Positions 6,871 through 47,348 of a stretch of 64,000 nucleotides of DNA are shown one piece after another. A program made the translations under genes and the position numbers. Origin of the DNA: Paulownia fortunei (lineage: Eukaryota; Streptophyta; Magnoliopsida; Lamiales; Paulowniaceae); contig CM033120.1 of NCBI GenBank assembly GCA_019321725.1, positions 3,374,841 to 3,438,840 of the forward strand. Direction: 5' to 3'. The notes beneath the pieces were generated by a model, which saw nothing but the letters and a program-made list of their open reading frames with translations, ran no database searches and was not told the origin of the DNA. Numbering within the stretch: position 1 is the first letter of the stretch; each line of letters begins with the position of its first letter.

Positions 6871-7123
6871 TATAAGGAGAAGATTGAGCTTTCTGTGGAA
6901 TTGATTGAATTATATGTATACAGTATTGTGTTATGTTACATATACATAGGAGATCAATTTACATATAGAGTATTAAAGTAATATAAAATTTAATCTTTAT
7001 ATAAACTACTCTAATCCTAATCAAATCTCCTAAATAGGGAAACTAATCAATCTAATATGCAGGAATAATGATTTAAAGATTCATTATGTGATGAGCTTAT
7101 TTTTTGGCTCATTATCCTTATTA
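6871..7123 (-). repeat. Copia LTR A (3' LTR of a minus-strand element)
   Basis: A 253-bp LTR. On the minus strand it starts TAATAAGG directly after a PPT (CTTGAGGGGGCG, plus-strand 7124 onward) and ends CCTTATA. The termini are TA...TA, not TG...CA. The same LTR recurs at 10237-10486, 12055-12238 (internally deleted), 11764-11880 (partial) and 12770-13006. No matching TSD is seen at 6866-6870. Confidence 0.85.
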
Positions 7124-8690: not shown

Positions 8691-8716
8691 ACAATGAGAG
8701 AGTACTTAGTGGAAGG

Positions 8717-9985: not shown

Positions 9986-10236
9986 AGCCAAGCCAGTTAT
10001 CTATTGTGACAACATTGGAGCTATATATTTATGTACAAACCCAGTTTTCCACTCTCGCTTGAAACACATTGCAATTGATTTTCACTATGTTCATGACAAA
10101 GTTCAAGAAGGAGCTCTTCATGTCTCTCATCTGTCGGATCAACTAGCAGATACTCTAATTAAGCCTCTGAGTGCTCCATGCCTACACCATCTCTGAAGAA
10201 AGATTGGAGTCTACCATCCTCCACCTTGAGGTGGCA
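9986..10236 (+). pseudogene. Copia RNase H C-terminus and polypurine tract
   Basis: A short segment coding VIYCDNIGAIYL, then HIAIDFHYVHDKVQ and LADTLIKPLS, the standard end of copia RNase H. The frame stops near 10190 and is followed by a PPT-like CTTGAGGTGGCA that abuts LTR B. The upstream RT and the RNase H N-terminus are deleted. The same end is present in minus orientation at 7124-7390. Confidence 0.8.
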
Positions 10237-10486
10237 TAATAAGGATAATGAGCTGAAAGATCAACTCATCACATAATGAATATTTAAATCATTATTCCTG
10301 TATATTAGATTGATTAGTTTCCCTATTTAGGAGATTTGACTAGGATTAGAGTAGATCATATAGAAATTTATTTTTATATTCTTTGATATTCTATATGTAA
10401 ATTGATCTCCTATGTATATGTAACATAACATAATACTGTATATACAATTCAATCAATTCCACACAAAGCTCAATTTTCACCTTATA
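10237..10486 (+). repeat. Copia LTR B
   Basis: A 250-bp LTR, start TAATAAGG, end CCTTATA, immediately followed by TGGTATCAG. It is preceded by RNase H and a PPT and followed by a PBS and gag, so one LTR serves as 3' LTR on one side and 5' LTR on the other. Confidence 0.85.
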
Positions 10487-10498
10487 TGGTATCAGCCA
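10487..10498 (+). promoter_or_regulatory. Copia primer-binding site
   Basis: TGGTATCAGCC directly after the LTR end, matching the initiator-Met tRNA priming motif TGGTATCAGAGC with a change at the 3' side. It would have primed minus-strand DNA synthesis. Confidence 0.75.
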
Positions 10499-10523
10499 AC
10501 CAACTCTAACGAGTGAAACAATC

Positions 10524-11763
10524 ATGGCCAACACTTCAAACACCAAATCTAATACCACCGCACTTGCTGCTCAGCCAACAATTATCAATCCATTTGACCC
10601 TCAAAACTATCTCATTGCAGTTAATTTAGCAGCTCAGACACCAACCAAATTCACCACCAAGAACTTCTCGGCATGGCGCCTCTAGTTTTAAAGTCTACTC
10701 CTAGGCTACAACCTACTAAGATATATTGATGGTTCATATCCTTGTCCTCCTCCCACTATCCTATCCACTATCAGTGCTACAACTAATCCGGAATATATCC
10801 TTTGGGTTCGATAGGATCAACTTCTTCTCAATGCTTTGGTGGGATCAATTTTACCAGATGTATTGCACTTTATCTCTACGGCACAAACAACAAGAGATGC
10901 CTGGCATACTATTCACAATACATACGCGAAGACCTCTTAAGGGCACATTATTCAATTGAAAGGTTATCTTAGTGTTCTTGATAAAGGCAATGAAAGCATC
11001 TCCTCCTAGATGCAACATGTAAAGCGTTATATTGACGAACTTGTCCTCATGAAAGTCTCTATTAATCCTAAAGATCTTACCCTTGATATACTCTGTGGTC
11101 TTGGTGAGGGCTATAATAGCCTATCTACTGTCATTGCTGCAAGGGAAAATCCTATATCATTTGATGAATTACATGAAAAACTTGTTGTTTCTGAAGCCCA
11201 ACTCGAGACTGAAAAAAAAAACCTATCCTCATTGTCTATCACTGCAAATACTGCTAGAAAACTAACTTACACTCCCAGTCAACCCATCACTTAATCAGAA
11301 TCACCAACATACTCGTCCATTCTTCAACTCACCATCTGAATTTAATGTGAATTCCCAACGATAATTCCGCCCATATAAAGGATATTGTCAACTTTGTGGT
11401 ACTCGGGTTCATTCTGCAAAACATGACACCCAATTCAAGCATATTCCTTGGCATACTGGCAACTCCTCTCCGCAACATATTTCTCAGCCACAAAATAAAT
11501 ACCCGTGTGCCAACTATGCAACTCAACTATCTCCTAACTCATAAGAATGGTTGCTTGATTCGAGTGCTTCTCATCATGTCACCATAGACTTATAGAATCT
11601 ATCATTGCATACTGATTATCTTGGTCCAGATGACATTCAAATTGGCGATGGATCAGGTCTAAAAATCACTCATACTGGTTCCACTTTATTACCTTGTTCC
11701 AATGGTTCAGTAAATTTGTCTAATGTGCTTTGTGTTCCACATATGAAAAATAATTTAATTTTT
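10524..11763 (+). pseudogene. Copia gag and protease (RE1-like)
   Basis: Starts at ATG 10524, 38 bp past the LTR. Gag contains FDPQNYLI, TKNFSAWR, the YIDGSYPCPPP-type block and DAWHTI near 10905. 11010-11294 is an intact run with PKDLTLDILCGLGEGYNSL and ISFDELHEKL. The zinc-knuckle region (CQLCGTRVHSAKHD) is eroded. The protease site reads WLLDSSASHHVT near 11550, where the usual DSGA has become DSSA. It ends at LSNVLCVPHMKNNLIF. The family resembles plant RE1-type copia by motif. Stops occur from about 10685 onward, so it is not functional. Confidence 0.8.
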
Positions 11764-11880
11764 GATCAACTCATCACATAATGAATCTTTAAATCATTAT
11801 TCCTGTATATTAGAATGATTAGTTTCCCTATTTAGAAATTTTGATTAGGATTAAAGTAGATCATATAGAGATTTATTTTT
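11764..11880 (+). repeat. Partial copia LTR, plus orientation
   Basis: Matches LTR B from about its base 23 to base 140 (starts GATCAACTCATCAC, ends near GATTTATTTTT). It is joined on the left to protease and on the right to antisense integrase, with no LTR terminus at either side. Confidence 0.75.
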
Positions 11881-12052
11881 GGCATTCTGTTAATGAGATA
11901 AACTTCGGTAGCAAAAGCTTGTAGCCAGAAGGATAGTGGGATAGAAGCATGATGAAGAAGTGTAAGACTGGTTTCGACAATATATCGATGATGACGTTTG
12001 GCATAACTATTGCGCTCAGGAGTATGTGGTGGGGTTGTGAGACGTGTGATAC
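11881..12052 (-). pseudogene. Copia integrase fragment, minus strand
   Basis: On the minus strand this reads as the C-terminal half of the integrase core (TTPPHTPERN, RHHRYIVET, SIPLSFWLQAF, YLINRMP), about 57 codons with no stop in that frame. It is homologous to plus-strand 9340-9515. It sits between an LTR and a partial inverted LTR, so it is a scrambled piece, not part of a complete gene. Confidence 0.8.
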
Positions 12053-12054
12053 TA

Positions 12055-12238
12055 TATAAGGTAAAGATTGAACTTTGTGTGGAATTGATTGAATTGTATA
12101 AAAATAAATCTATATATGATCTACTCTAATCCTAATCAAATCTCCTAAATAGGGAAACTAATCAATCTAATACACAGGAATAATGATTTAAAAATTTATT
12201 ATGTGATGAGCTGATCTTTCGGCTCATTATCCTTGTTA
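12055..12238 (-). repeat. Copia LTR, minus orientation, internally deleted
   Basis: On the minus strand it runs from TAACAAGG to CCTTATA; about 70 bp in the middle are absent compared with LTR A. Together with 11764-11880 it forms an inverted repeat of about 115 bp flanking the integrase fragment. No TSD is apparent. Confidence 0.8.
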
Positions 12239-12769
12239 GTCTACACCGTTGTTTTGCTCAAATATAATTTTTTGACGATACATTACTTTTAAAGTGTTTC
12301 TAGTTCATGCTTTAAGAAATTGTACATAAACAATTACTTTTTACGTCTTCAAACTTCAAAAGTATGAAAAATAAATGAAAAATAAATCCAAACAAGGCCT
12401 ATATTCTCTTTCATAATACTCCTCTTTAATTATTTGGGCCATATATCACTTTTATTTTTTGGGATTAACTTCCTATTATGTTTACTGACGTAATTCTCGT
12501 GCAGGCCTGCACGCTATCTTCTTAATGTATCTCTCACCTGCTCTTTCTTAATTTCATGATGTTCGTCCACATGCTGGGTTACTAACCTGTTTTCTGTGTA
12601 CATAATTAATTATGTTTCTAGCTCTTGCTCCCAATGCAATATGTTTCTCTAATTAAGGTTTTATATTTATCTTTGTTATTACTTATTAGAGGTCTTGAAA
12701 TCAAACTTTCTCGCGAACTCCAGCCCATCCTTATTTGGGTTGGTTGATCAAGACAATCACAGCTCCTCG
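12239..12769. other. No recognised feature
   Basis: AT-rich sequence between two copia LTR copies. No ORF, tRNA or repeat match to the rest of the window was recognised. Confidence 0.5.
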
Positions 12770-13006
12770 TAATAAGGATAATGAGTCGAATGATCAGCTC
12801 ATCATATAATGAATCTTTAAATCATTATTCCTGTATATTAGATTGATTAGTTTTCCTATTTAGGAGATTTGATTAGGATCAGAGTAAATCATATAGAGAT
12901 TTATTTTTATATTACTTTGATACTTTATATGTAAATTGATCTCCATAATACAATACTGTATATACAATTCATTTAATTCCACACAAAGTTCAATCTTCAC
13001 CTTATA
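12770..13006 (+). mobile_element. Solo copia LTR
   Basis: A 237-bp LTR of the same TA...TA family (TAATAAGG to CCTTATA) with no internal domain on either side. Flanking pentamers (cctcg, gacca) do not match, so the TSD is lost or the copy arose by rearrangement. Confidence 0.8.
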
Positions 13007-13621
13007 TAGACCATCTCAATCATGAATCAAGTGTCACTAATTTAATATTTTGCTTTCGTCATATACCACAGTGTGTGGATTTTTTAGAAAACCTTAAATA
13101 TATTCTCGTCAAGTATTTGATGTATATAGTTTGAAGTTGCCGGTCAAATTTTGAATGGTAAAAATTGAAGCTTATGATGATCCAAAAATATCATCAAAGT
13201 GTAGCATTGATAGTGCTGGCCAGATTATTGTTCCAAGCGCCAAATTGGAATTTTACTCAATTGTTATTTTTCATTGTCCTTGCCAAGAAACTGGGTGTCT
13301 GTCATCTCCATTGTTTGATGTTACTTACTGACCAAATCTGAAGGACTAAATATCAGTCGATTGACCAGTCTAAAGTTTGCAAAGTTTTATACCCTATTTG
13401 GGTATGATGATTTTAGTGAGAAAAAAATAAAAGAAAATATGAATACAACAATTATAAATTAGAACCTATGATTCTAGTGGGAAGTATCAGTTATTTTGGT
13501 TTGTTTTTATTTTACAACACAGAGAGTTTTTCTCTTTTTTTTTTTTCAATTATCATTTAATTTGAAAAAAAAACTAAAAATAGAGTACATAAAGTGAAAA
13601 ATAATATTCTAATATCACGAT

Positions 13622-28650: not shown

Positions 28651-30598
28651 TGATAAGTGCATATTTTCACATATTTTTGTATCAAATCCCTTATACTTTC
28701 CTTTCTTTATTCTTGTTAGTATTATAGTTTTATTAATATTATATGTTAGGAAATCAATGTACAAAAAGAGATCAAAAAGAACCAAAATGAAATCAAAGAA
28801 GACAACACGTTTCGTGAGCAAGTTGGAAGATAATATTTCATTGGATCAAAAAAGCATCACAATTAGAAGAAAAGGGTCATTGTTGCTTAAGTCTATCATG
28901 TGTAGATCAAAAATATATATGTAAGAAATCACTTAGACTTTGCAAGTGATTGTTAGGCTTGCATTAAATTCAAAATAATCATGTTAAATGACTTGTGTAC
29001 TTTTTGTATTTTGGGTATAACTCCATGTTCAAAAGGCTTGTAGACCTGAATATTGCTTTATTTGAAAGCAAGAGATAAAACTACAATTTTGTTGTTGGAA
29101 GTTTAGCCCAATTCAGCCTTAATTATAGTAGAAAATTCGTCCAAGTGTGTGTATTGGAAATAATTTATATATGTTAACACATTTTATTAAATCAAACATA
29201 ACTTTCTCCCTAATAGTTGAAATTAAGTGATTCAAATTGAAAAATGAAGATAACAGGAAATCTATAACTTTTATGTTGATCACTTTCTCAAAATTAGCTG
29301 ATTGCATGGAGAAAAATGTATGATAAAATTTAGATCTGAAAATGACATATGAATTTAAAGTACATTTGAAGTTAATTTGAAGTGCATTTGGAGAGAATTT
29401 GGAAATACCAATTTAGGCACTATTCTACTATAAATAAGGGCTCTTGGATGACATTCAAAACACACAAAAATCCTTAGAGTGGGAAATAATGTTTTATTAT
29501 TATCTTTCTTTAGGCTAAATTTTCTAGTAGTAATGTAAATTTTTTAGTAGTAATAGAAATGCATTCTCTAGTTTCTCTTCTATTTATAGTATTTTCTACT
29601 TTTATTATATCTTTTTAAATTTTATTTAGTTGAGAAGAAAGGGTGAACCTCTTAATGGAGGAAGATGAATGGTTATAAAGGTGCATAATATTCAGGTGTG
29701 TTGTATTATTATTTTAATTTTTGATTGAAACCCTCCTTGTTTTGTTATAATTCTTGATTTATATATCACCAACGGCACAACAAATATTTAGGTTCATTAA
29801 GTTTATTGTATGATTTTATTACACTGACTACTAACGTGAAACCTTAATTTGTAGTAGACAAAGGTGTGCATAAATACTTAATCTCATAAATAAGTATTGA
29901 CTTTAAAACATTTCTTGTTTAGTGGCGATTCTTGATTTTTGTATCACCAATGACACAACAAATACTTGGTTCATTTAGTTTATTGTACGGTTCTAGTCCA
30001 CTGACTGCTAACGTGAAACTTTGATTTGTTGTAGACAAAGGTGTACATAAATACTTAATCCCTTAAATAAGTGTTGGTGTAAAAACCCTCCTTATTTTGT
30101 GGTGATTCTTGATTTTTGTATCACTAATGGCACAACAAATACTTGGGTTCATTTAGCTTATTGTATGGTTCTACTCCGCTGACTGCTAATGTGAAACCTT
30201 GATTTATTGTAGATAAAGGTGTGCATAAATACTTAATCCCATAAATAAGTATTGGTGTTAATAGATAATATCATGATTACTTTGATAACATCTTCCCATT
30301 GGAACTTTCATTGTGTATGGATTCTAATCGTGGCATTTAAAAGTGGTAAAAAGAATAAATAATCATTCATCTATCTAAAACTTAAGAGTTGATTTCTAAT
30401 CCTCAATATTTTTATTACTCTGATTTCATAGTTATAGCCTAATTTTTTCTTTATATTCTAAACCACATGAAGCCCATCTTTTAAGAAATATAATCTTGAA
30501 AACTTCAAACAACTTCCCTGTGGATCAACCTTGTACTCCTAAAAAAATTATTACTTGACACAACCTGTACATGAGTTTGCAACTTTAAAATTGTAGCA
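28651..30598 (+). mobile_element. Solo Athila-type LTR
   Basis: A 1948-bp LTR (TGATAAGTGC...TTGTAGCA) matching the LTRs at 30845 and 43026. No PBS or gag follows at 30599. TATAAATA at 29429-29436. It carries three ~178-bp tandem units (29731-30262), where the other two LTRs have two, which explains its extra length. Flanks (atgta / tcata) do not form a clear TSD. Confidence 0.85.
29731..30262 (+). repeat. Three ~178-bp tandem units in the Athila solo LTR
   Basis: Units begin near the cttgattt motif at 29753, 29931 and 30108 (periods 178 and 177). Each contains a variant of caca-acaaatacttggttca and of gtagacaaaggtgt. Confidence 0.9.
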
Positions 30599-30844
30599 TC
30601 ATACTTTTCGTTATAGAATGGAAGGCGTATTTATAGTTGAGAGCAAGGATATGAGGTTGTTGTACTTATTGTACTACACCTTCAAAGTGTGTGATCATGG
30701 TGTTTTTGTACTACACTCGAAATGTAAGTGTCTTCCAAGGCTAATAGTATGGGCTCGTTTTAACTTTGTAATTTGTTCTTATTAATTATTTTAATAATTT
30801 AAAAGGTAAATTACTAGTAAGGGCATACCTTTGGTGATAAGTAG

Positions 30845-32624
30845 TGATAAGTGCATATTTTGACATATTTTTTGTATCAAATCCTTTATACTTTCCTTTC
30901 TTTATTCTTGTTAATATTATAGTTTTGTTAATATTTTGTGTTAGGAATCAATGATCCAAAAAAGATCAAAAAGAGCCTAAATGAAACTCAAGAAAACAAT
31001 AGGTTCGTGAGCAAGTTGGGAGATAATATTTCATTGGATCAAAGAATCATTACAATTAGAAGAAAATGGCCATTTTTTCCTAAGTCTATCATGTGTATAT
31101 CAAATTATATTCAAGAAATAACTTGGACTTTATAATTGATTGTTGGGCTAGCATTAAATTCAAAATAAGCATGTTTCCAAACTTGTGCAGTTTTGCTATT
31201 TTGAGCATAACTCTAAGTTCAAAAGCCCTATGGATCTGAATCTTACTTTATTTGAAAAAAAAAAGATAGAACTAAAACTTAGTTGTTTCAAGCTCAAACC
31301 AATTCTGCCTTGATTAAAGTAGAAAATTCGTCCAAGTGTGTGTATTGGAAATGATCTATCTATATTAATATATTTTCTTAAATCAAGCATAACTTTCTCC
31401 CTAGTGGTTAGAATTAGGAGGTTCAAGTTGAAAAATGAAGCTAACAGATAGATAAATGGCTTTTATGTTGATCACTTTTTCAAAATCAGTTGATTTCATA
31501 GAGAAAAATATATAAAAAAATTCATATCTTGAACGGACATATGAATTTAGAGCATATTTGAAGTAAATTTGGAGTGCATTTGGAGCGAATTTAGAGATTC
31601 CAATTTAGGAATTTTTCTACTATAAATAGGGGCATTTGGATGTCATTCAAGACATACAAAAACCAATAGAGGGGGAAAGAAAGTTTTATTGTTGTCTTTC
31701 TTTAGGCTAAGTTTTCTAGTAGTAATAGAAATATATTCTCTAATTTTTCTTCTATTTTTAGTCTTTTCTACTTTTATTATATTTTTTTTAAATTTCATTT
31801 AGATAAGGAGAAAGGGTGGACCTCATGATGGAGGAAGAGGAATAGCTATAAAGATTCATAATGTTCAGTTATGTTGTATTATTGTTTTAATTTTTGATTG
31901 AACCTTCTTGTTTTGTGGTGATTTTTGATTTATATATCACCAATGACACAATAAATACTTGGGTTTATTTAGCTTATTGTATCTGTCTACTCCACTGACT
32001 AGTAATGTAAAACCTTGATTTGTTGTAGACAAAGGTGTGCATAAATACTTAATCCCATAAATAAGTGTTGGCGTTAAAACCCTTCTTGTTTTATAGTGAT
32101 TCTTGATTTATGTATCACTAATGGCAAAACAATTACTTGGGTTCATTTAGTTTATTGTACAGTTCTATTCCAGCGACTGCTAACGTGAAATTGATTTGTT
32201 GTAGACAAAAGTGTGCGTAAATACTTGATCGCATAAACAAGTATTGGTATTAATAGAATTTGCAATCTGTAAAATAATATCATGATTACCTTAATTCATG
32301 AGCTATTTGATAACATCTTCCCATTGAAACCTTGATTATATTGGGATTCTAATAGTGTCATTTAAAAGAGGTGAAAAGAATAAATAATCGTTCTTCTATC
32401 CAAAACTCAAGGGCGGATCCCTAATCCTTAGTACTTTTATTACATTGATTTCTTAGTTATAGATTAATTTTTTCTTTATAATCTAAATCACATTCAGCCC
32501 ATCTTTTAAGAAAAATATAAACCCTAAAACTTCAAACAATTTCTTGTAGATCGACCTCGTACTCCTAAAAAATATATTACTTGACACAACATGCACTTGG
32601 GTTTGCAACCTTAAAGTTGTAACA
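30845..32624 (+). repeat. Athila-type 5' LTR
   Basis: 1780 bp, TGATAAGTGC...TTGTAACA. TATAAATA at 31621-31628. Two ~178-bp tandem units lie at about 31900-32256. Confidence 0.9.
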
Positions 32625-32625
32625 A

Positions 32626-32648
32626 GTTTTTGGCATCATTATCGGGGA
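32626..32648 (+). promoter_or_regulatory. Decayed Athila primer-binding site
   Basis: GTTTTTGGCATCATTATCGG follows the LTR. Compared with the usual Athila-type TGGCGCCGTTGCCGGGGA, every difference is a C-to-T or G-to-A transition, which fits decay of methylated cytosines. Confidence 0.7.
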
Positions 32649-33676: not shown

Positions 33677-35965
33677 TGTAACAGCGTTTAACCTAACTGC
33701 AGAACCTAAATAAGTTGATACAGTTAAAATGTTAACTTTTCATTAATACTAGAGTTATGATTTTAATAAAAGTTTCCTTTTTCTATTTGGGCTATAAGAG
33801 AAAAAAACTTAAATTCATTTGTTGTTTCATTTCTTTTTAAACACACCATATACATAAACCAAAACGGAGTACATCTGTTTACAAAACCATAACAGAGCAG
33901 CTTATTTAAAAACAAAATAGAGTTTTCAAAATATGGTACAAAACAACTCGAAGCATAGCATATGAACAAATCTATGTTCGGCCGCTCTTGAGACTCAATC
34001 AATCTCTAAACCTATACTTTTTCACCTTCATCACATGAATCTGATGAGCTAAAAGCTCAGTAAAGTGGAACTAATGTAATAACAAATAATGTACATGCAA
34101 ATCATATAAATGATTACATGCACTATTCAATTGAATAACTTTCATTCATAAATCATTCTTTAAGGCCCTTGAAGTGTGGTACCTAACTAATAGCGATAGA
34201 TCATAGTTTTCGGAACTTGTTCATAATGATTGGCCAATAAGAGAAATAATATGGGGTTTTCCATACTTGGTCTTTAAACCTCAAGTATTAGCCATATTCT
34301 GTCTCATTCATTGTGGCTTTTATATACCGATTTTTCAACCTCAAGTATTTGCCACCATTTGTTGGGTACGTTGGTCCCTCTCGTGTCCCTTGTCTACCCG
34401 ACCATCAATCAAGTACCATACTTCCTTTTCAAAAACCTCATTATACTTTTAGCAGTATCATGCTTCATGAACCATGAATGCATCAAACATTACATCACTT
34501 GACAAATAATGACAATCACATTAAAACATGAACAACATTATATGATTCTTGTGATGCAGTAAATGAAAATTTCAACTTACCTCAAGTCCACTTTGTGCTA
34601 AGTGAAAAGATCAATCTCTTTTGAAGATAGGATGTGTTAAAGGCCTGACATAATCAAATTATGTACCTTTTAATATCCTTTTGATAAATCACATAATCTA
34701 TTCTAATTAAAATCATATACACTTTTCAATCTTTTGTAAATTATTTCAATATCAATTACATAACCTCAAATATAATGCATACTCCATATTTTACTACTAA
34801 TTCAAGACATTAAACATTAGGACAACCATTAAATAACTAATAATTCAATCATAACTATTAGGGCAGCCCACAAAATATTAACACAATCCAAATTAAAATG
34901 ATGTAAACTCGGTTTTAAGTTAAATTGATTATAACATTCAATTAAGAAAATTAATTGCTATTGTTCACAAACATTTGTAGGCAGTTCCAAATACAATATA
35001 AGCATTACAATATTAATAGAAATAAGTAAATTAAGTATATTTCACAAGACTATCAATTTTGCTAAAAACAAGCTTAACTAGCTTAGTTTTAGCTTCAAGT
35101 CTATCCCACTTAAGTTTTCATTCATACAAAAACATATTAAAACATGTAACCATCCAAGATACTATAAATTCATCATAATAAACATTGAAAAATAATATAC
35201 TTTGATTAAGTTGGAATTAAGCTTCAAAATTAATGGTTTTCAAGCTTAAAAGGGTACAAACTTGTTCTAGTTTATATTCTATGGATTCCTGTGGATTGAA
35301 TTCAATTTTTGAGTAAGAGAGTGGAGAAACTTTGGAGAAAAAGGCTGGTCATTTTTAAGGAGCTTCCACAAGGAAATATGGTTAAAAATAACTTGTCTGA
35401 CATTTCAAAGAGAGATAAGTGGAGGGTGATGATTGGTTGCATCATGCATGGTGTCTTCTCATTCCAAAAGACATGTTTATGGGCTAGGGAGATGGAAAAA
35501 AATGATTTTTGGGGTTATAATCAAGTGCAATGCAGTTTAGAATGATTTAATGCAACCTAGTCAACTTACAAATCAATTTGTACCATTTTGCATACTTTTA
35601 GTTCTTAGCCAAATGTAACGTATTTCAAGAAAATATTTAGGCAAATAATCACTTTAGAATGTAACAAGTATGGAGCAATACAAATAATTCATTTCATGGA
35701 CATTATCAATCTTTCTTAACCGAAATACCGAGTTTTTTACTGCAAAAAGGCACTTAAGGAATATATTAAATCAAGAAATAAAAGGTTGATCTCATATTTC
35801 ATGTACTAATGCATGTTAAATCATAATTGGAGTATATATTAACAATTATTCATGTTCGTGCAATCATGCTATTTGTATGCCATAATCCGATAATGCATAT
35901 TGATTAGATGCATATTCATGCAAGATGTTTATTATTGGTTATGTAGGAGAGAATTGGGCATTACA
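33677..35965 (+). mobile_element. Tekay/Del-like solo LTR inside Athila gag
   Basis: A 2289-bp solo LTR with ends TGTAAC...ATTACA, closely matching 45023-47348. Flanks TGTAA (33672-33676) and TGTGA (35966-35970) match 4/5. Taking out the LTR and one TSD copy leaves a correct CX2CX4HX4C zinc-knuckle spacing across the junction, which supports the boundaries. The Tekay/Del assignment rests only on the terminal sequence style (TGTAACACCCC in the other copy); no internal domain is present. Confidence 0.85.
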
Positions 35966-36600
35966 TGTGAAATTGTGGGACACTCCACCAATGAATGCCC
36001 AAATATTCCAGTACAAGGAAATGTCATGAACATTTTCAAAAAGACTTTTCATTCTCCATATTCTGAAACTTCCAATCCACAATGGAGAAATTATTCCAAT
36101 TTTAGTTGGCGAGATGATAACCGTGCTCAACCACTATATTCACAAAAGCCACCAAATTTTCCTTCTTATCCAGCTCCACATACAAAATTCCTTGATGTGA
36201 TATTGCAAGCATTCATACATGGACAAACAAATATCAATAACCAGACTTCACAGCCATTAATGAGATCAAAAGCACACTTTCAACATTGATAACTTCTTTT
36301 CGTACCCATGAAAAAAGTAAATTTTCTGCTCAACCTTAACCTAATCCTTCCACTCAGTGTCATGATTTTTCTTCATGTAAAGATTCAATCAAGGAGACTA
36401 ATTTGGTTAAAACTCTTCGGAATGAAAAAGTTGTTGACAAAACTATTCATTCCAAGGAGAAAGTTTATAATCCACCTTTAGAAATGAAGAATGGAAATAA
36501 TTTTGACAATGAAGGTAAGTTTAATGAATGTGAATTTAAAGATGATGAAAAAGAAAAATACTCACATCTAGCTCATTTTCCTCAAAAGATTGCAACCAAA
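35966..36600 (+). pseudogene. Athila gag, C-terminal part
   Basis: The run 35900-36289 resumes after the solo LTR with VGHSTNECP (second half of the zinc knuckle), then FHSPYSETSNPQWRNYSNFS and a proline-rich tail, as in Athila gag. 36403-36600 (YSHLAHFPQKIA) leads into the protease region. Frames change near 36290 and 36600. Confidence 0.8.
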
Positions 36601-36931
36601 TCAAAAATTGAAATCAAATGCTGAAATCTTTAAAGTTTTTAAACAAGTCAAGAATAATATTCCATTGTTTGATACAATCAAGCAAGTTCCACCTTATCCT
36701 AAATTTTTGAAAGATTTGTGTATAATCAAAAGAAAACATCATGTACAAAATACACATATTTCTATCATTTTGATTCATCCTTTTCTTGCAATTTCAAATG
36801 CTTTGATTAATTATAGGAATTGTATTTTGAAGTTATATTTTGGAAATATCACTTTGGAACTAAATATATTTAACATTTGTAAGCAACCTGCAGAAGATGT
36901 CGAAGTACAAGATGTGGATTCAATTGAATAA
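36601..36931 (+). pseudogene. Athila protease remnant
   Basis: NAEIFKVFKQVKNNIPLFDT and KFLKDLCIIKRKHHVQN are the pre-protease region. Sequence then jumps to HPFLAISNALINYRN and LKLYFGNITLELNIFNICKQ, the protease C-terminus. The catalytic D-T/S-G segment between them is missing, so the protease is dead. Confidence 0.7.
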
Positions 36932-37099: not shown

Positions 37100-38700
37100 A
37101 TACAATCTGTTCCATCAAGTATTAAAGATCCCGTGATTAATTTAAAACTTTTTTTGTTTGATTTGAAATACTATTTCTTGGGTGAGAATGAAACTTTTTC
37201 AGTAATAATTTATTCCAAACTTGATGCATCCCAAGACGGTAAGTTGATCAAAATTCTGAAAATGCATAAGAATGTTTTAGAATGGACCATTATTGATATT
37301 AAAGGTATTAGTCCTTTAATTTGTTCACATAACATCTATCTAGTGAAAAATGTCAAACCATCTAGAGAGGTGCAACGAAGGCTAAATCCTAACATGAAAT
37401 AAGTAGTAAGAAATGAAGTCATTAAATTCTTATATAATAGAATCATTCATCTTATTTCTGACAACAAATGGGTAAGTTCTACTCAAGTTGTGCCTAAGAA
37501 ATCTGGAGTTACTGTAGTCAAGAATGAAAATATTGAATTAATTCCAACTAGGACTGTTACTGGTGGTGAATGTGCATTGACTATAGAAAACTCAACTCAA
37601 TTACTAGAAAATATCATTTTTCATTACCTTTCATGGATCAAATCTTAGAAAGAGTTGCGGGACATGAATTTTGCTACTTCTTAGATGGATATTCTAAGTA
37701 TAATCAAATTGCAATTGCACTTGAAGATCAAGCAAAAACTACTTTTACATGTCATTTTGGTACTTTTACTTATCGAATGATGCCTTTTGGATTATCTAAT
37801 GCACCAACTATATTCCAAGGATCCATGCTTAGTATTTTTAGCGACATTGTTGAACGTTTTCCAGAAAGTCTTCATGGATGATTTTTCTATTTTTGTAATT
37901 TATTTGATGATTTGTTGTCTAATTTAGAAAAGGTTTTGATCAAATGTGAGAAAAGAGCCTTATACTCAATTGGGAGAAATATCATTTCATGGTAACAACT
38001 GGTATTATTCTTGGACACATTATTTTGTGTAAAGGTATTAAAGTAGATAAATCTAAAATTGAGTTAATTGCCAATTTGTCAATACCAAAGTCTTTGAAGG
38101 AGGTAAGATCATTTTTAGGACATGCTAGGTTTTATAAAATATTTATTAAAGATTTTAGTATAATATCTAAACATTTGTGTAATTTTGTAACAAAAGACAC
38201 TATTTTTGAATGGATTGAAAATTGTGAAAATATTTTTGTTAAGCTTAAAAGCATGCTTATGTTTGCTCCAATCATGCAGCCTCCACATTGGACTTTACCT
38301 TTTGAAATAAATGTGATGCTGGTGACTATGCTGTTAGAGTTGTCTTAGGAAAAAAAAAAGATAAGAAACCAAATATCGTTTACTGTGCAAGTAAAACTTT
38401 GAATAGTGTTCAACTGAATTATTTAACAATTGAAAAAGAATTACTTGTTGTAGTTTTTATATTAGACAAATTTAGATCTTATCTTGTTGGCTCACCAGTT
38501 GTTGTTTTCAGTTATGATGCGGCTTTGAATTATCTTTTAAAAAAAGAATGACAAACCTAGATTGATTAGATGGATTCTTTTACTCCAAGAATTCAATATT
38601 ACGATTTGAGATAAGAAAAGACTCGAGAATGTGATGGTTGATCATTTATCGAGACTTATTTCTGATGACTCATTTCTAACCACACCCATTAATGACACTT
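37100..38700 (+). pseudogene. Athila reverse transcriptase and RNase H
   Basis: 37133-37402 holds the pre-RT region (LKMHKNVLEWTIIDIKGISP). RT: MCIDYRKLNSITRKYHFSLP, FLDGYSKYNQIAI (first catalytic Asp, near 37683), MMPFGLSNAP at 37777-37806, then after a frameshift FMDDFSIF near 37873 (catalytic DD). The thumb and connection (SLKEVRSFLGHARFYKIFIKDF) lie at 38090-38160. RNase H follows: IVYCASKTLNSVQLNY near 38370-38420 and KFRSYLVGSPVVV near 38469-38505. All three RT Asp residues are present; inactivation is by frameshifts and stops. Confidence 0.85.
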
Positions 38701-38759: not shown

Positions 38760-40013
38760 TGTGACAGGAAAGATGCCACCGCATTGGAATTCCCAAGGTA
38801 AAAAGAAATTTTTGGCTGAGGTGAAAAACTTTTATTAGGATGATCTATACCTATTCAAATATTATCCTAATCAAATCTTTTGGAGATGTGTGCCTGATAA
38901 TGAGAAAGGTAATGCTCTTAAATTGTGTCATTTAAGAGCATGTGGTGGTCATTTTTCAGCAAAGAAAACTATTACAAAGATCTTGTAATATGGATTTTAT
39001 TGGCCAACTCTTTTCAAAGACACTTACACTTTCTACAAAAGTTGTGAAAATTGTCAAAAGTTAGGATCCATTTCAAAAGTGAAACATGATGTCTTTACAC
39101 CCCCATCTTAGTGATTGATATCTTTGACTCTTGGGGTATTGATTTTATGAGAAAATTTCTATTATCATTTGGTTTTATTTACATATTAGTCACCATAGAT
39201 TATGTCTCAAAATGAATTGAGGCAATTCTCTGTCGAAATAATGATCACAAAATAGTGATAAAAGTTTTGAAAAAAAATATTTTAAGTCGATTTGGAATTC
39301 CTCGATCCATTATCAGTGATGGAGGAAAATATTTTTGTAACAAAGTTTTTGGAACTTTAATGAGGAAATATAGAATCATACATAAAGTTGCAACCCCTTA
39401 TCACCCTTAGACAAATGGTCAAGTTGAACTTGCAAATAGGGAGATAAATAAATTTTAGAAAAGATAGTTAACTCAAATAGAAAAGATTGATCTCTTAGAC
39501 TTACTGATACACTTTGGGCAAATAGAACTGCTATTAAAAAATCATTAGACATATCTCCTTATAGGATAGTTTATGGAAAAACTTGTTATTTACCTCTTAA
39601 ACTTGAATATAAAGTTTATTGTACAATCAAAATGTATAACTTCAACCTTGATGAAGTTTAAAAATTGTGCAAATTACAAATCAATGAACTTCAAGAATTG
39701 AGAAATGATGCATATGAGAATTATAAAATTCATAAAGTAAGAATCAAATAATTTCATGATAATAAAATATCAAGAAAAACATTTGAGGTTGGTGCTTTAT
39801 AATTCTCAATTGCATTTATTTCTTGAAAATTTGAGATCAAGGTGGAGTGGTCTTTTTGTTGTAAAAAAGATATATCCTTATGGAGAGATTGACATTGAAA
39901 ATCCTAAAAATGGTAAGGTATTCAAAGTAAATAGACAAAGACTTAAACCGTTTCTAGAAAATCAATTTTCACAAGAGAAAATTATTTTTCTTTCCAACCC
40001 TTGTTATGATTAG
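38760..40013 (+). pseudogene. Athila integrase
   Basis: The zinc-binding domain (LCHLRACGGHFSAKKTITKIL, CENCQKLG) is at about 38920-39066. The core has WGIDFM near 39134, IISDGGKYFCNKVFG near 39310-39354, and NGQVELANREI near 39416-39448, so the D, D and E positions are all recognisable. The C-terminal segment at 39756-40013 includes LRSRWSGLFVVKKIYPYGEI and KVNRQRLKPFLENQFSQE, as in Athila. Multiple stops (for example near 39002, 39409 and 39458) and shifts break it. Confidence 0.85.
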
Positions 40014-40219
40014 TATTTGTATATATACACACATTTTCTCTAACTTTGATTGTTTTATAGCCTTTCTTTCTTTTATTTTTTTCTTTTCTCTTCCCAATTA
40101 AGTGGTGGAAAACGGTATTATGTAGCTATTGAAGTCAGACTTATTAGTTTCGCAAACAACTGAAATCTCTGTACAAAATTTCTCCCTTTTTCTCATTGAG
40201 TTTTCTTGTTCTTTTCAAA

Positions 40220-40722
40220 ATGGATGACATTATTCTAACTCTCAAGAAGCGATTTTCTTTTCTTCCTAAAAATGTCCCATGGAACATACGATGAATAATT
40301 GAAGCAAATGTAAGAGTAACAGGTGAGTTTTCATATGAGTTTTCAAACTTGTTTACTAGATACATGTCTGATTTTGGTAAAAGCACATATTAAACAAAAA
40401 ACCAATGGCAAAAAAAATGCAAGTTTGTCACAAATGTGCTCGATGGACTTGCAACACAAAGTGTAATTCCTTAGAAATGATTTCTAAAAATCAAAAAGAT
40501 AAAATTCAATTCATTATGGATGGATTGGGTAAGGAGTCTTTAGATGACATCATATTGACTCTTAAGATGCATTCATGTAGATTAATACAACGTGCAATTC
40601 ATGATTTATGGGATAACTTTCGTGATGAATATGAGTGTTATAGTTTTAGGAATTTGACATTAAAATACCATATTTTCCAGTTTCTAAGAAAACTGGATAT
40701 GAAGCAAATCCTCGACCCATAG
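40220..40722 (+). pseudogene. Unrecognised post-pol ORF (ORF-X) in Athila
   Basis: Starts with MDDIILTLKKRFSF at 40220. After one internal stop and a frameshift in an A-run, 40405-40722 is open for 105 codons. The latter part has Cys pairs CHKC and CNTKC within its first 20 residues and reads DLWDNFRDEYECYSF later. The string DDIILTLK occurs near both ends, suggesting an internal duplication. No transmembrane stretch is obvious. It sits where Athila elements often carry an env-like ORF, but no such signature is seen. Function unknown; it may be captured sequence. Confidence 0.45.
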
Positions 40723-40952
40723 AGGGCATTTAAGCCATTACTAGCCATAAAACCAGAGGAATCTGTGAGCCACAGTTATAACTACGTGTATATTCACGTG
40801 TAGTATTTTTTTTTTCAAACTTTGTGTCCTTATTTTCAATCCTTCTGACAAAAAAAACGTGCAATAAATGCATTCTCTATTCACACCTCAATAAATTATA
40901 TCGTAATTACTCTATTTTTACACAACTCACTTTCAAAAAAAAATAAAAGAAA

Positions 40953-41575
40953 ATGGAAAGGTCTTCCACTCGCAAGTTCAACTATATTTCTGTCTTTTGT
41001 GGAACCAATCCATGAAAAAATGGTGAATTTATAAGGGCAGCCAATAACCTTGGTAGAACTTTAGTTGAAAGAAAAATTCACTTAGTGTATGGGGAGGTAG
41101 TCTTGGGTTAATGAGGAATGTTGCTACTTCTGCTCATATAGGAGCAGTCAAAGTTTTAAGAGTTATCACAAAATATTTAACAGTACAGAATATTATAGGT
41201 ATGACCATCGGAGATGAGCTAAAAGTATCACATATTCAGAATAGAATGCATAACATGTTAAATAATGTGAATGCATTCATCACTCTACTTAGTATTTTTG
41301 GTACACTAGAAGAATTATTCCAAATTGTCTCTTGAGCATAACTCAACTTTCACCAGAAACTTGTAGGTATTCTTAATGTTAATAGTTTCTTTAATAGTTT
41401 GCTATCTTTTGTAGATCATGCTATAGAAAAAGATTTTATTTCACCATCTGTGAGACGAATTCTCATTTCTATTCCAACACCTGACCAACTGATTTATCAA
41501 CTTCAAGCATATGTGTCAGAACCTAATCCAACCTTGGCTCATAATTGGTCGAACAGGGACAATGGTCGAAAATAA
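40953..41575 (+). pseudogene. LOG: LOG-like (cytokinin riboside 5'-monophosphate phosphoribohydrolase) retro-pseudogene
   Basis: About 207 codon-equivalents from ATG 40953 to TAA 41575, matching plant LOG proteins along their whole length and close to their usual ~200-215 residues. Landmarks: FNYISVFCGTNP (N-terminal Rossmann start), LVERKIHLVYG followed by GSLGLM, NVNAFITL before FGTLEELFQIVS, LVGILNVNSFFNSLLSFVDH, and the C-terminal QLIYQLQAYV. LOG releases active cytokinin bases from nucleotide precursors. Defects: stop at the codon after GTNP, a 1-nt loss in the YGGG segment near 41090, PGG of the PGGxGTxxE motif changed to LSI (near 41283-41292), stops near 41333 and 41339. No introns, unlike known plant LOG genes, so an RNA-mediated capture is likely. 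It lies in sense between pol and the 3' LTR. Confidence 0.8.
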
Positions 41576-43010
41576 AAAATAAATTTGACTCTCAGCCTGT
41601 GAAATTTATCTTTAATAATTTCAACTAATAGTGTATATATTGTGTTGTTTTAGCTTTATTTTCAAATAAGTCACATTTCAGATAATATCCTCCAAACTCT
41701 ACTTTCCTATCTATTTTTGACATTAGGGATAATGTCTTGATTAGTTTTGGGAGGAGATAGTTGATATCATGTCTTGTGTATTCAATATGTGTTTTTTTAG
41801 TTTTTATTTTTTAAAAAATATTCAAACATATTTTATTTTTTTTGGGGTCCATTGGAACATCATGAAAAATGATGGCAGAGTAAAGGGTAACTTTAACACT
41901 CTTGAGACGTACTCCTATTTTTTTAGCATAACATGGCAAGTTTGTAAAGGTTTTAACAAAAGTTTGTGAATTGTCATTTTTTTTAGTCGTAGATGTTCTT
42001 CCAACTTCAATGATTAAAATTAAGCATGAATAATATGATTTGATTGATGATGTGTGTTGTTTTGGACTTTGATGTTGTTCTTTGGTTAATATATTTTTGT
42101 GATAATTATACTCAAATCTTTTTGCACAAATAGTTTTGTTATTCGGAATGGAGACAAGCATGTCAAAATAGGTAGCTCTTATGCCCTTGCTTTAATCATC
42201 ACTTGGATTTTTAACATGTAGAGGATAGAAGATAAGTATGGGGAAGTTTTTCTTCTAAAAAAAGCAAAAAAAAAAAGTCGCTATGTGTTAAAAATATTAT
42301 GAGTTGCAACTAAAAATGGGATATTGCAAAATCAATAAGAATGATGAAGAGGGGTCCAATTCAATAACAATAGGCCCCTGTATTGAAATTCGTGGAATAT
42401 AAGAATTCTTCAATGATAAACTCTATGTCTCTAATCCCATGAAGTTTTTAGAAGTTTTGTTGTATCTTATCCTTTTATTTCTTAGATACATCACTACCAT
42501 TTGACCCATTACAACTTTTATTGAGGACCTTTTGATTTTATGTGGTACCTTCGGTGTAGTGGAGATTTGTACCAAAGGAAGAGTCTATAATGTTTAACTC
42601 TTTTATTAGAGATTAGGTGATGGTTTTGTGAGGTTTTATAGGATTTCACTTGTTTGAAACATGCATAGTTTCGTCACTATTTATAATAACTATTCACACA
42701 TACACACACACACACTTGAGTATGCATATTGTGGGAATGTATTCTTTTGAATAACTAAGGATTAGATTCAACATTTTTTTAATTTATTTTTCATATTACT
42801 TTGTTACTTCCTGAGAATAATAGCTGGAAGTTAATTATCATAGGTATTTGTGGGTATCACCGTTGGAAATTCTCATGAGATTTAACTCATCCTTTATAGG
42901 TCACTTAAGGGTTTAAAGACTTGTTGCTTAAGCTAAATGCAATCATAATTTTCTATGAAAGTGGATTAGTTTAGCTTTGAGTTAAACTTACTCGAGGACG
43001 AGCAAGTGTT
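41576..43010. other. Athila 3' untranslated region
   Basis: 1.4 kb without a recognised gene. It includes the TTTTGGGAGGAG purine-rich block near 41743, an (AC)n stretch near 42699-42714, and leads to the PPT. One ORF (41769-41969) has no familiar motif. Confidence 0.6.
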
Positions 43011-43025
43011 AAGTGTGGGGGAATT
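43011..43025 (+). promoter_or_regulatory. Athila polypurine tract
   Basis: AAGTGTGGGGGAATT directly before the 3' LTR, typical of Athila-type elements. Confidence 0.85.
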
Positions 43026-44793
43026 TGATAAGTGCATATTTTAATATTTTTTTGTATCAAATTATTTATACTTTCCTTACTTTATTCTTGTTAATATTAT
43101 AGTTTTAATAATATTTTTTGTTAGGCAATCAATTAACAAAAAGAGCCAAAATAAAATCAAAGAAGACAACAAGTTTCGTGAGCAAGTTGGGAGATAATAT
43201 TTCATTAGATAAAATAAGCATTACAATTAGAAGAAAAGGGTCATTTTAGCCTAAGCTTATCATATGTAGATTAAAATATATGCAATAAATCATTTGGACT
43301 TTGCAAGTGATTGCTGGGCTTGCATTAAATTCAAAATAAACATATTTCTAAACTTGTGCATTTTTTTGTATTTTGGGCATAATTCCATGCTCCAAAGCCT
43401 TATGGACCTGAATCTTACTTCATTTAAAGCCAAGAGATAGAACTACAACGTTTCTATTGGAAGTTAAGCCCAATTCAGTCAAGTGTATGTATTAGAAATG
43501 ATCTATATATGCTAACACATTTCCTTAAATCAAACATAACTTTCACCCTAGTGGTTGGAATTAGGTAATTCAAGTTAGAAAATGAAGCTAACAGATAGAT
43601 ACACAACTTTCATGATGATCACTTTCCCAACATCAGCAGATTTTATAGACCAAAATGTGTGACAAAATTCAGATCTGAAAAGGACATATGAATTTAAGGC
43701 ATATTTGAAGTAAATTTGGAGTGCATTTGGAGTGAATTTGGAGATGTCAATTTAAACACTTTCTACTATAAGTAGGGGATTTTGGATGTCATTCAAGACA
43801 TAAAAAAAATTTAGAGGGGGAAACAAAGTTTATTTGTTGTGTTTCTTTAAGTTAAGTGTTATAGTAGTAATATAAGTTTTCTAGTAGTAATAGAAATGTA
43901 TTCTCTAGTTGTTCTTCTATTTTTAGTCTTGTATACTTTCATTATGTCTTTCTAAATTTTATTTAGTTGAGGAGAAAGTGTGAACCTCTTGATGGAGGAA
44001 GATAAACCATTATAAAGGTGCATAATGTTCAGGTGTGTTATATTATTATTTTAATTTTTGATTAAAACCCTCCTTATTTTGTGGTAATTTTTTATTTATG
44101 TATCACCAATGACACAATAAATACTTTGATTCATTTATCTTATTGTACGATTCTGCTCTACCAAGTATTAATATGAAACCTTGATTTGTTGTAGATAAAG
44201 GTGTTCATAAATACTTAATTCCTTAAATAAGTGTTGGCGTTAAAACCCTCTTTATTTTGTGGTGATTCTTGATTTATGTATCACCAATGGCACAACAAAT
44301 ACTTATGTTCATTTAGCTTATTGTACAGTTCTACTTTACTGATTGCTAACGTGAAATATTGATTTGTTGTAGACAAAGGTGTGCATAAATACTTGATCCC
44401 ATAAACAAGTATTATTATTAAGAGATAATTTACAAACAATAAAATAATATCATGATTAGCTTAATGCATGAGTTATTTGATAATATTTTTCTATTGAAAT
44501 ATTTATTATGTATGGATTTTAATAGTGGCATTTAAAAAAGGTCACAAAAATAAGTAATCGTTCTTCTATCCAAAACTCAAGAACGGATCTCTAATCCTCA
44601 ATACTTTTATTACTTTGATTTCTCAATTATATCATAAATTTTTCTTTGTAATCTAAGCCACATTTAGCCCATCTTTCAAGAAATATAGACCCAAAAATGT
44701 CAAATAACTTCTCTATGGATTGACCTTGAACTCCCGAGAAATTTATTACTTGACACAACTTGTACTTGGATTTGCAACCTTAAAGTTGTAGCA
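43026..44793 (+). repeat. Athila-type 3' LTR
   Basis: 1768 bp, TGATAAGTGC...TTGTAGCA. Two ~178-bp tandem units at about 44067-44420. The TATA box has become TATAAGTA (43767-43774). Confidence 0.9.
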
Positions 44794-45022
44794 ATTAGAG
44801 CCATCATACTAGCCCCACTCCCAGGTGTACTCACGTATTGAGAATGTAATCTAAGAGTAGAAAAAATTTATTATCTTATATAAAAGAATTTTGTGAAATA
44901 TTCCGCCGCCATTGCTAAAGCTATTGTCAAGCCACATCAAGGTGAGGCTCGCTTAGTCATGTGAGGTTGATGTAACCTCAACCTGTTTTGAGGATCACGG
45001 GCCTCAACTGGGGGTAACCAAG

Positions 45023-47348
45023 TGTAACACCCCTTAACCTAACAGGAGAGCCTAAACAAGTTGATACAACTAAGTCAAAAAATGTTAATTTTTCATCAAT
45101 ATTAGCGTTATGATTTAATAAAAGTTCTCATTTTTAGCTATAAGAGAAAGAATTTGAATCGTTTTAAACACACCATATACATATATCAAAATTGAGTACA
45201 TTTGTTTACAAAACTATAACAGAGCGGCTTATTTAAAAACAAAATAGAATTTTCAAAATAAACTACAAAATAGGTCGAAACATGGCATATGAACAAATCT
45301 CTGTCCAGCCGCTCTAGAGACTCAGTCAACCTCTAAACCTGTACATTTCTACCTACATCACATGAATCTAATGAGCTAAAGGCTCAGTAAGGTGAAACTG
45401 ATGCAATAACAAATAGCGTGCATACCAATCACATAAATGATTTAATGCAATATTCAATTTAATAACTTTCTTTCATAAATCAATCTTTAGGGCCCTTAAA
45501 TTGTGGTACTTAACTAATAGCGATAGACCATGGCTTTCAGAACCTGTTCATAATGATTGGCCAATAAGAGAACTAATACGGGGTTTTCATACTTGGTCTT
45601 TCAACATCACGTATTAGCCGTATTCTATTTCATTCGTTGTGGCTTTCCTATACCAGTTTTTCAACCTCAAGTATTTGCCACCATTTGTTAGGTCCGTTAG
45701 TCCCTCCCACATCCCTTACCTACCCAATTATTAATCAAGTACCATACTTTCTTTTCAAAAACCTCATTATATTCTCAATAGTGTCATGCTTCATGAACCA
45801 TAAATGCATCAAACATTACATCATTTGACAAATAATAACAATCACATTAAAATATGAATAACATTATATGATTCTTGTGATACAGCAAATGAAAGCTTCA
45901 ACTTACCTCAAGTCCACTTTGTGGCAAGTGAAAAGACCAATCTCTTTGGAAGATAGGATGTATTAAAAGTCTAACATAATCAAATCATGTACCATTTAAT
46001 ATCCTTTTTATAAATCATTTAATCTATTCTAGTTAAGTTCATATACACTTTTCAATCTTTTGTAAACAACTTCATATCAATTACATAACCTTAAAAACAA
46101 TGCATACTCCATATTTTACACTAATTCAAGACATTAAACATTAGGGCAGCCATTCAATAACTAATAATTCAAACATAATTATTAGGGCAGCCATTCAATA
46201 ACTAATAATTCAAACATAATTATTAGGGCAGCCCCTAAAACATGCACACAATCTAAATTAACATGACGTAAATTCGGTTCTAACTTAAATTGATTGTACC
46301 CTTCAATTAAGCAAACTAATTGCTATTGTTCTCAATCATTCAAAGAAACTTCCAAACACAATATAAGCATTACAAAATCAATAGAAACAAGTAAATTAAA
46401 CAAATTCACATGACTATCAATTTTGCTAAAAATTAGCTTAACTAGTTTGGTTTTGGCTTCAAGTGTAACTTACTTAAGTTTTCAATCATACAAAAATAAC
46501 TAAAACATGTAACCATCCAAGATAATACAAATTCATCATAAGAAACATTGAAAAAGAATATACCTTGATTAAGTTGGAATTAAACTTCAAAATCAACGGT
46601 TTTCAAGCTTAAAATGGTGGAAAGTTGTTCAAGTTTGTGTTCTATGGATCCCTATAGATTGAATTCAATTTTTGTGAATATGAGAGTGTAGAAATTTGGG
46701 AGAAATTTAGGAGAATAAGGGCTGGTCGTTTTTTAGGTGCTTCCACAAGAAATATGGATGAAAATGATTTCTTTGACCTTTCAAAGAGACGTAAGTGGAG
46801 GATGATGATTGATTGCATCATGCTTGGTGTGTTCTCATGCCAAAAGCCACGTTCATGGGCTAAGGAGATGACAAAAAATAATGCTTTGGTGTTATAATCA
46901 AGTGCAATGTGGTTTAAAATGATTTTGTGCTACCTAGTCAACCAGCCAATCAAATTGCACCATATTGCATACTTTTAGTTCTTACCCAAATGTAACATAT
47001 TTCAAGTAAATACTTAGGCAATTAATAACTTTACCATATAACTAGTATGGAGCAATACAAATAATTCATTTCATGGCCATGCAACACATCAATCTTCCTT
47101 AACCGAGATACCGAGTTTTTCACTGCAAAAAGGCACTTTAGGAATATGTTAAATCAAGAAATAAAAGTTTGATCTCATATTTTATGTACTAATGCATGTT
47201 AAAGCATAACTAGAGCATATAATAACAATTATTCAAGTTCGTGCAATCATGCTATTTATATGCAATAATTCAATAATACACATTGATTAGATGCATATTC
47301 ATGCAAGATGCTTATTATTGGCTATGTAGGAGAGAATTGGGCATTACA
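45023..47348 (+). mobile_element. Tekay/Del-like solo LTR with perfect TSD
   Basis: 2326 bp, TGTAACACCCC...GCATTACA. Flanked by CCAAG on both sides (45018-45022 and 47349-47353). It matches 33677-35965 throughout. A 41-bp unit occurs as two full copies plus a partial at 46140-46232, one more than in the other LTR. No internal domain, so it is a solo LTR left by recombination. Confidence 0.9.
46140..46232 (+). repeat. 41-bp tandem units in solo LTR
   Basis: Units start ATTAGGGCAG at 46140, 46181 and 46222 (period 41). The corresponding place in the 33677 LTR has fewer units. Confidence 0.85.

Follow-up and report, generated by a model that had tools for sequence, protein, structure and literature searches.

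The DNA analysed here (64,000 nucleotides of Paulownia fortunei contig CM033120.1, referred to as the window) contains a decayed LTR retrotransposon, and within this element, in sense orientation, lies a broken gene of the LONELY GUY (LOG) family. The features found are the following:

30845..32624, + strand: 5' LTR (TGATAAGTGC...ACA), from the blastn match of 30845-32625 with 43026-44794 (81%)
32631..32647, + strand: PBS-like stretch just inside the 5' LTR, from the sequence
35894..36688, + strand: remnants of the gag 3' end and protease junction, named by reading of the frames; no Pfam match
37570..37878, + strand: reverse transcriptase fragment (PF00078, 1e-12)
38306..38548, + strand: RNase H fragment (PF17917, 9.4e-18)
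38839..39407, + strand: integrase remnants, with H2C2 at 38839-38985 (PF17921, 6e-4, below cut-off) and the rve core at 39216-39407 (PF00665, 6e-8)
40148..40719, + strand: open stretches in the interval separating integrase from LOG; no Pfam family reached its cut-off
40953..41602, + strand: LOG-family pseudogene, from frames, PF03641, TIGR00730, the 2a33 match and tblastn
43011..43025, + strand: polypurine-tract-like sequence abutting the 3' LTR, from the sequence
43026..44793, + strand: 3' LTR, from blastn against the 5' LTR

The pol remnants stand in the Ty3 order (reverse transcriptase, RNase H, integrase H2C2 and rve), and the paired LTRs, the succession of reverse transcriptase, RNase H and integrase, and the 3' accessory gene fit Athila as well as other Ty3 lineages with 3' ORFs. 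We class the element as a decayed Ty3 element and provisionally call it Athila-like, following an earlier note made from the letters of this DNA, the style of the primer-binding site (PBS) and polypurine tract (PPT), and the LOG-bearing elements already published. Steinbauerova et al. (2011, Genetica) reportedly described Athila-like elements that have similarity to LOGL4 and additional ORFs in their 3' region. The stretch at 32631..32647 may resemble a decayed Athila-type PBS; an Athila PBS pattern (with at most three mismatches) gave seven matches in the window, none within the element and none at 32631..32647, and was rejected. The two LTRs differ by a K2P distance of 0.177 over 1740 sites, which, with a plant substitution rate of 1.3e-8 per site per year, corresponds to roughly 7 million years, and the five-mers flanking the pair (30840-30844 and 44794-44798) are equal at four of five positions, a weak target-site duplication. 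On the gag side, the Athila ORF-1 domain (PF03078) was looked for in the pieces 35894-36286 and 35300-35542, neither of which had a Pfam match; this domain is present in 16% of Athila elements (PMC6317226). Between integrase and LOG, two similar short stretches (40223-40250 and 40543-40570, 79% over 28 nt) both code for DDIILTLK.

The earlier note had placed a LOG-like gene, in sense orientation, at 40953-41575, between the integrase and the PPT of the element. Its position was right, with the rve core (39216-39407) upstream and the PPT-like tract and 3' LTR downstream: the gene begins some 1.5 kb downstream of the rve match, and roughly 1.4 kb separate its end from the PPT-like tract. The proposed start was also right (an ATG at 40953), and only the end has to be moved, to 41602, where KINLTLSL and a stop are read after the fourth in-frame stop; the corresponding remnant of a C-terminal tail (41576-41599) resembles the C-terminus of open relatives. 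By open-frame reading, the pseudogene occupies a first frame over 40953-41093 and a second one over 41093-41572, and its decay is as the note described it, with stops, a break of the reading frame in the GGG segment (near 41093), and the PGG of the PGGxGTxxE motif gone; the in-frame stops number four. This copy is dead.

Nevertheless, its family membership is clear. When read through (with X at the stops), the gene matches NCBIfam TIGR00730 at 1.4e-34 (119.3 bits, cut-off 96.35), Pfam PF03641 at 2.6e-21 (76.6 bits, cut-off 27) and Arabidopsis At2g37210 (PDB 2a33) at 3e-45 over residues 6-188. Two stop-free pieces (41093-41332 and 41342-41572) each exceed the PF03641 cut-off alone, with 29.4 and 35.6 bits, and the 26-aa piece at 41016-41093 had no match in the Pfam scan. 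Chance similarity is excluded, because LOG proteins reach 238 bits against the window in tblastn, whereas 100 dinucleotide-preserving shuffles averaged 15.1 bits and never exceeded 23.1. The host protein AtLOG3 aligns at 42-46% (tblastn), and five LOG proteins used as tblastn queries revealed no second copy within the window. The lack of introns, which had been taken as a sign of capture through RNA, does not discriminate this route from capture as DNA followed by splicing, since an intron in sense orientation would have been lost by splicing as the element went through further cycles of retrotransposition.

The earlier note had also raised the possibility of intact versions in other copies of the element, and open relatives of the gene do exist in other plants. 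A protein search with the broken window LOG gave 233 candidates and 135 matches, of which the best 120 are listed. The twelve best relatives are open, 217 aa long and 73-75% identical (four from Paulownia fortunei and eight from ENA contigs), and further ones among the matches listed come from Rehmannia, Reevesia, Diplodiscus and Orobanche, with Reevesia accounting for 64 of the 120 and represented by all chromosome labels from 01 to 20. With a profile built from 16 relatives (7999 candidates scored), the best 120 matches brought in Populus trichocarpa, Populus x canadensis and Xanthoceras, as well as numerous metagenome contigs; one cluster (P0180) comprises 205 member sequences. The relatives therefore span at least Lamiales (Paulownia, Rehmannia, Orobanche), Malvales (Reevesia, Diplodiscus), Malpighiales (Populus) and Sapindales (Xanthoceras), a lower bound because the profile results cover the best 120 matches only. 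Many listed relatives are fragmentary (<205 aa), and the database, being one of open frames, favours intact copies; the open relatives P0004, P0034, P0013 and P0160 score 172-192 bits against TIGR00730 (cut-off 96.35). In viral contigs, the profile scan gave 88 pattern stretches and the P0180 scan nine, none of them confirmed, and the DNA pattern gave none; the pattern scan of prokaryote genomes gave 20 stretches, all with bacterial titles.

The clearest element context among the relatives is that of Xanthoceras, where in two of the four gene models (P0121 and P0122) a stretch between the LOG parts matches window positions 36578-36688 (tblastn 2e-6), a region that we read as a putative gag/protease junction. 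Additionally, the first 17 residues of the Paulownia model P0118 resemble window positions 40268-40318, upstream of LOG, although weakly (9/17 identical, E 0.18). The Rehmannia, Orobanche, Reevesia, Diplodiscus and Populus copies probably lie in elements as well, considering their kinship, their copy number and the published report on Citrus and poplar discussed below.

The roles of the pocket residues are those of C. glutamicum LOG: catalysis is proposed to depend on Arg99 and Glu122, the adenine is held by Met96, Lys100 and Glu121, and the proposed prenyl-group residues are Met96, His97, Lys100, Glu125 and Trp129, which are identical in AtLOG3 (PMC4979012). By shared-motif offset, these residues correspond to Arg102, Glu125, Met99, Lys103, Glu124, His100, Glu128 and Trp132 of AtLOG3. 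Host LOGs were obtained from a third search (7997 scored, best 120 listed, 116 of them new), in a sample that leans to the LOG1/3/7/8 types. Residues were counted in 107 of the 116 host proteins (those of 195-260 aa) and in the 138 clade proteins with a length of 205-240 aa; this set excludes P0090, P0097, P0102 and the four Xanthoceras models, and three Xanthoceras segments were counted apart.

All eight positions are invariant in the 107 host LOGs. In the clade, Lys103 is absent from all 138 proteins (Met in 69, Ile in 44, Leu in 23, Thr in 1, Val in 1), and so is Glu128 (Gln in 96, His in 38, others in 4); both are likewise absent from all 34 clade representatives that are <80% identical, and the window copy itself has Met and Gln at these positions. 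Glu84 is replaced in 135/138. The catalytic residues are mostly retained (Arg102 in 127/138 and Glu125 in 133/138), as are Glu124 (133/138) and Trp132 (132/138), with Met99 kept in 106 and His100 in 71 of the 138. Most open relatives have PGGxGTxxE and the catalytic Arg and Glu, and the adenine/prenyl site as it exists in AtLOG3 (Met, His, Lys, Glu, Trp) is not found in the 138 clade proteins. The three Xanthoceras segments keep both Lys103 and Glu128, which would fit an early branch that left before the pocket change, or a separate history. In P0019, the representative of 28 Reevesia member sequences, the catalytic Arg is replaced by Cys, and this would count against full activity of every copy. 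NCBIfam NF058542 (the cytokinin LOG equivalog, cut-off 300) was tried as a test of function and rejected: it is not informative for plants, because the read-through (73.3), five clade proteins (116-208) and also five host LOGs (116-136) all fall under its cut-off.

These counts bear directly on the idea, raised in the earlier note, that the element carried a hormone-metabolism gene as cargo. A LOG was very probably kept in the lineage, but its hormone role is doubtful, because two residues invariant in 107 hosts are replaced in all 138 clade proteins. One form of the idea is an ordinary LOG, i.e. a working cytokinin activator raising the free cytokinin of the host and, for example, promoting the division of the cells that transmit the element. 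Such an enzyme would explain why the fold, the catalytic pair, Glu124 and Trp132 are largely preserved, and the Xanthoceras segments even have the host-type Lys and Glu. However, the C. glutamicum counterpart of Lys103 helps to form the adenine site, and alanine mutants of the AMP-binding and catalytic residues, with the exception of Ser19, are nearly inactive (PMC4979012). Ordinary cytokinin activation is possible, judging by the residues, although it fits the pocket poorly, and we regard this explanation as unlikely.

Besides the changed pocket, the clade differs from host LOGs in its C-terminus, which typically consists of a basic run followed by alternating leucines (e.g. KKRKLDLTLRL). The LxLxL pattern occurs within the last 12 residues of 49/64 proteins from the first search (whose query did not include that end), being missing in the other 15, and of 69/74 further proteins from the profile search, a figure biased by a profile that held the tail; it occurs in 0/116 host proteins. 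A basic run within the last 25 residues is present in 55/64 and 67/74 proteins, versus 1/116 hosts. The EAR consensus is LxLxL and DLNx(x)P, located mostly at the C-terminus in characterised repressors (PMC9956375), and both forms occur in the clade (P0194 ends in DLNLTP), LxLxL being a short pattern. The Xanthoceras models have no tail, and the ends of these gene models may be wrong. AlphaFold2 models the core of P0034 with confidence (mean pLDDT 87.7), and residues 203-216 are mostly below 50, as would be expected of a free linear motif; the best solved match is AtLOG3 (2a33), with a TM-score of 0.97 by target and 0.78 by query. The LOG fold and the catalytic Arg and Glu are mostly retained in the clade, and the tail, from its motifs, may serve nuclear import and corepressor binding.

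The earlier note had called for a tree with host LOGs, and it places the window copy among element-type proteins. In a quick tree of 76 rows, hand-picked from the three protein searches, 43 element-type rows (window included) lie on one side of a branch with SH-aLRT 99, together with the Populus proteins P0160, P0170 and P0171. A careful tree of 70 rows (the 76 minus four long-branched element-type rows and two outgroups) separates 39 element-type from 31 host rows at 100/100 (bootstrap/SH-aLRT); the tail and four pocket columns had been taken out beforehand, so these features cannot drive the split. In this tree all element-type rows except Xanthoceras group at 99/94, and the window and the Lamiales rows at 100/99, the window being nearest to Paulownia. 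Four element-type LOGs, P0086 (Diplodiscus, without the tail), P0070 (Orobanche minor), P0092 and P0199, are strongly diverged, on long branches, which suggests further sub-lineages or decaying copies.

The same trees have to be weighed for the number of captures. If LOG had been captured independently more than once, or if elements bearing it had moved horizontally, instead of one old and mainly inherited capture, this would account for Reevesia and Diplodiscus (both Malvaceae) not being sisters in the quick tree, a result that leaves room for two or more old lineages or for transfer; for Xanthoceras, which has neither the tail nor the Lys/Glu changes; and for the attachment of the clade, where the LOG7-type and LOG1/3/8-type hosts have AU p values of 0.88 and 0.87 (again without the four long-branched rows and the two outgroups) and neither is favoured. 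Against this stand the single clade, at 100/100 versus 31 host LOGs (in a sample without LOG5-type and non-seed-plant LOGs), and the Lamiales rows held together at 100/99. On balance, multiple captures or transfers seem to us a minority possibility, to be taken as seriously as the ordinary cytokinin activator.

A captured host sequence could also be a neutral passenger, persisting only through young and numerous elements. The window copy is indeed broken, many of the relatives are shorter than 205 aa, and captures of this kind have been described as random (PMC5408684). Yet in a set of 16 diverse clade proteins, which share 47-80% identity with the first of them, 45 columns are invariant, and the catalytic residues and the tail stay while other sites vary, the tail being present in three named orders and absent in the fourth (Xanthoceras). 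This pattern would fit purifying selection on the clade LOGs and makes a passenger improbable. Least credible of all, to the point of being nearly dismissed, is a later retrocopy inserted into this one element: an imperfect repeat (34 nt, 71%) does flank the gene at 40786 and 41633, but it is T-rich and one of 27 such families, and the repeat search gave no convincing flanking repeat. Moreover, the gene lacks a poly-A stretch behind it and falls within a multi-copy clade and not among host LOGs, and in Xanthoceras two LOG models continue into sequence from this kind of element.

The reading that we prefer is that of a kept and modified LOG cargo of an Athila-type lineage, of which we are quite confident. 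A plant LOG gene would once have been captured into the 3' accessory-ORF position of this lineage and retained while the lineage spread across several eudicot orders. In the working mechanism, the basic tail would bring the protein into the nucleus, the changed pocket might bind or cleave some nucleotide that differs from the customary cytokinin riboside monophosphates, and the EAR-like C-terminus might recruit a TOPLESS-type corepressor, such that host transcription or silencing would be altered to the benefit of the element. We lean towards this account as a whole, a judgement weighted to the kept and modified cargo, whereas the nuclear/EAR mechanism taken by itself is tentative and in our view rather less likely than not, being read from motifs. 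More speculative by a shade is its boldest formulation, in which a hormone-activating enzyme would have become the nuclear regulator of the element, a transposon counterpart of pathogen effectors with a pocket for another nucleotide and a tail for nuclear import and TOPLESS, acting on transcription or silencing in the host. Xanthoceras counts against the favoured account, since the clearest element context belongs to proteins that keep Lys103 and Glu128 and have no tail.

LOG domains in LTR retrotransposons have already been published for Citrus and poplar, contrary to the earlier note, which knew of no described case. In a survey of 121 angiosperm genomes (PMC9289625, Alvarado-Marchena et al. 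2022), YgdH domains (otherwise known for the LONELY GUY family) were found in the LTR-retrotransposon consensus sequences of two Citrus species, C. sinensis and C. clementina, and, only without the copy filter, in those of P. trichocarpa; for LOG-bearing elements, it cites Steinbauerova et al. 2011. These elements agree with ours in having a LOG-family domain in Ty3/gypsy elements, and the Populus proteins of our clade (P0160, P0170 and P0171) extend the likeness. The passage on these elements in that report names the domain and the species, with no mention of an altered pocket, a tail, or Lamiales or Malvales members. No mention of these three was found in the open-licence literature on LOG with LTR elements or on EAR motifs with transposons, and the whole words cytokinin, Athila, LOG and EAR are all absent from a 2026 review (PMC13317346).

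Compared with the host enzymes At2g37210/LOG3 and At5g11950/LOG8, the clade shares the fold, PGGxGTxxE, and the catalytic Arg and Glu, and differs in the replacement of Lys103, Glu128 and mostly Glu84, in the basic/LxLxL tail, in its many copies and in forming a separate clade. Gypsy elements of Phalaenopsis similarly keep a host-type enzyme, an AlkB-type RNA demethylase, as an extra ORF; the enzyme is a different one, and its activity was measured in vitro (PMC9289625), while the clade LOG is known from its sequence. The pathogen effectors HaRxL21 (PMC7446885) and Jsi1 (PMC8126959) also carry an EAR-type motif on a foreign protein acting in plant cells; these, however, are pathogen proteins with reported TOPLESS interaction, whereas the clade LOG is a transposon-type protein with the motif only.

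Genes captured by plant LTR elements are mostly viewed as short-lived passengers, but the LOG described here seems to be a captured enzyme that persisted across several orders of eudicots; most of its catalytic residues are preserved, while its pocket is altered and it has gained a tail that looks regulatory. The role of Athila-type accessory genes may in this way become testable with one small soluble protein. Moreover, some annotated plant LOG genes (e.g. P0160, LOGL10 in poplar) may be transposon genes, which affects cytokinin gene counts.

The surroundings of the element hold further repeated sequence. A further LTR-like copy lies at 28651-30598, 246 bp upstream of the element (K2P 0.19 to the 5' LTR and 0.21 to the 3' LTR), and may be a solo LTR or belong to a tandem array. 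After the 3' LTR, the 5' internal region occurs once more at 45023-47348 (84% to 33677-35965), which suggests a tandem or recombined element pair. Finally, 6917-13009 is rich in clustered repeats, both inverted and direct, with lengths of 62-177 nt and mostly 83-94% similarity.
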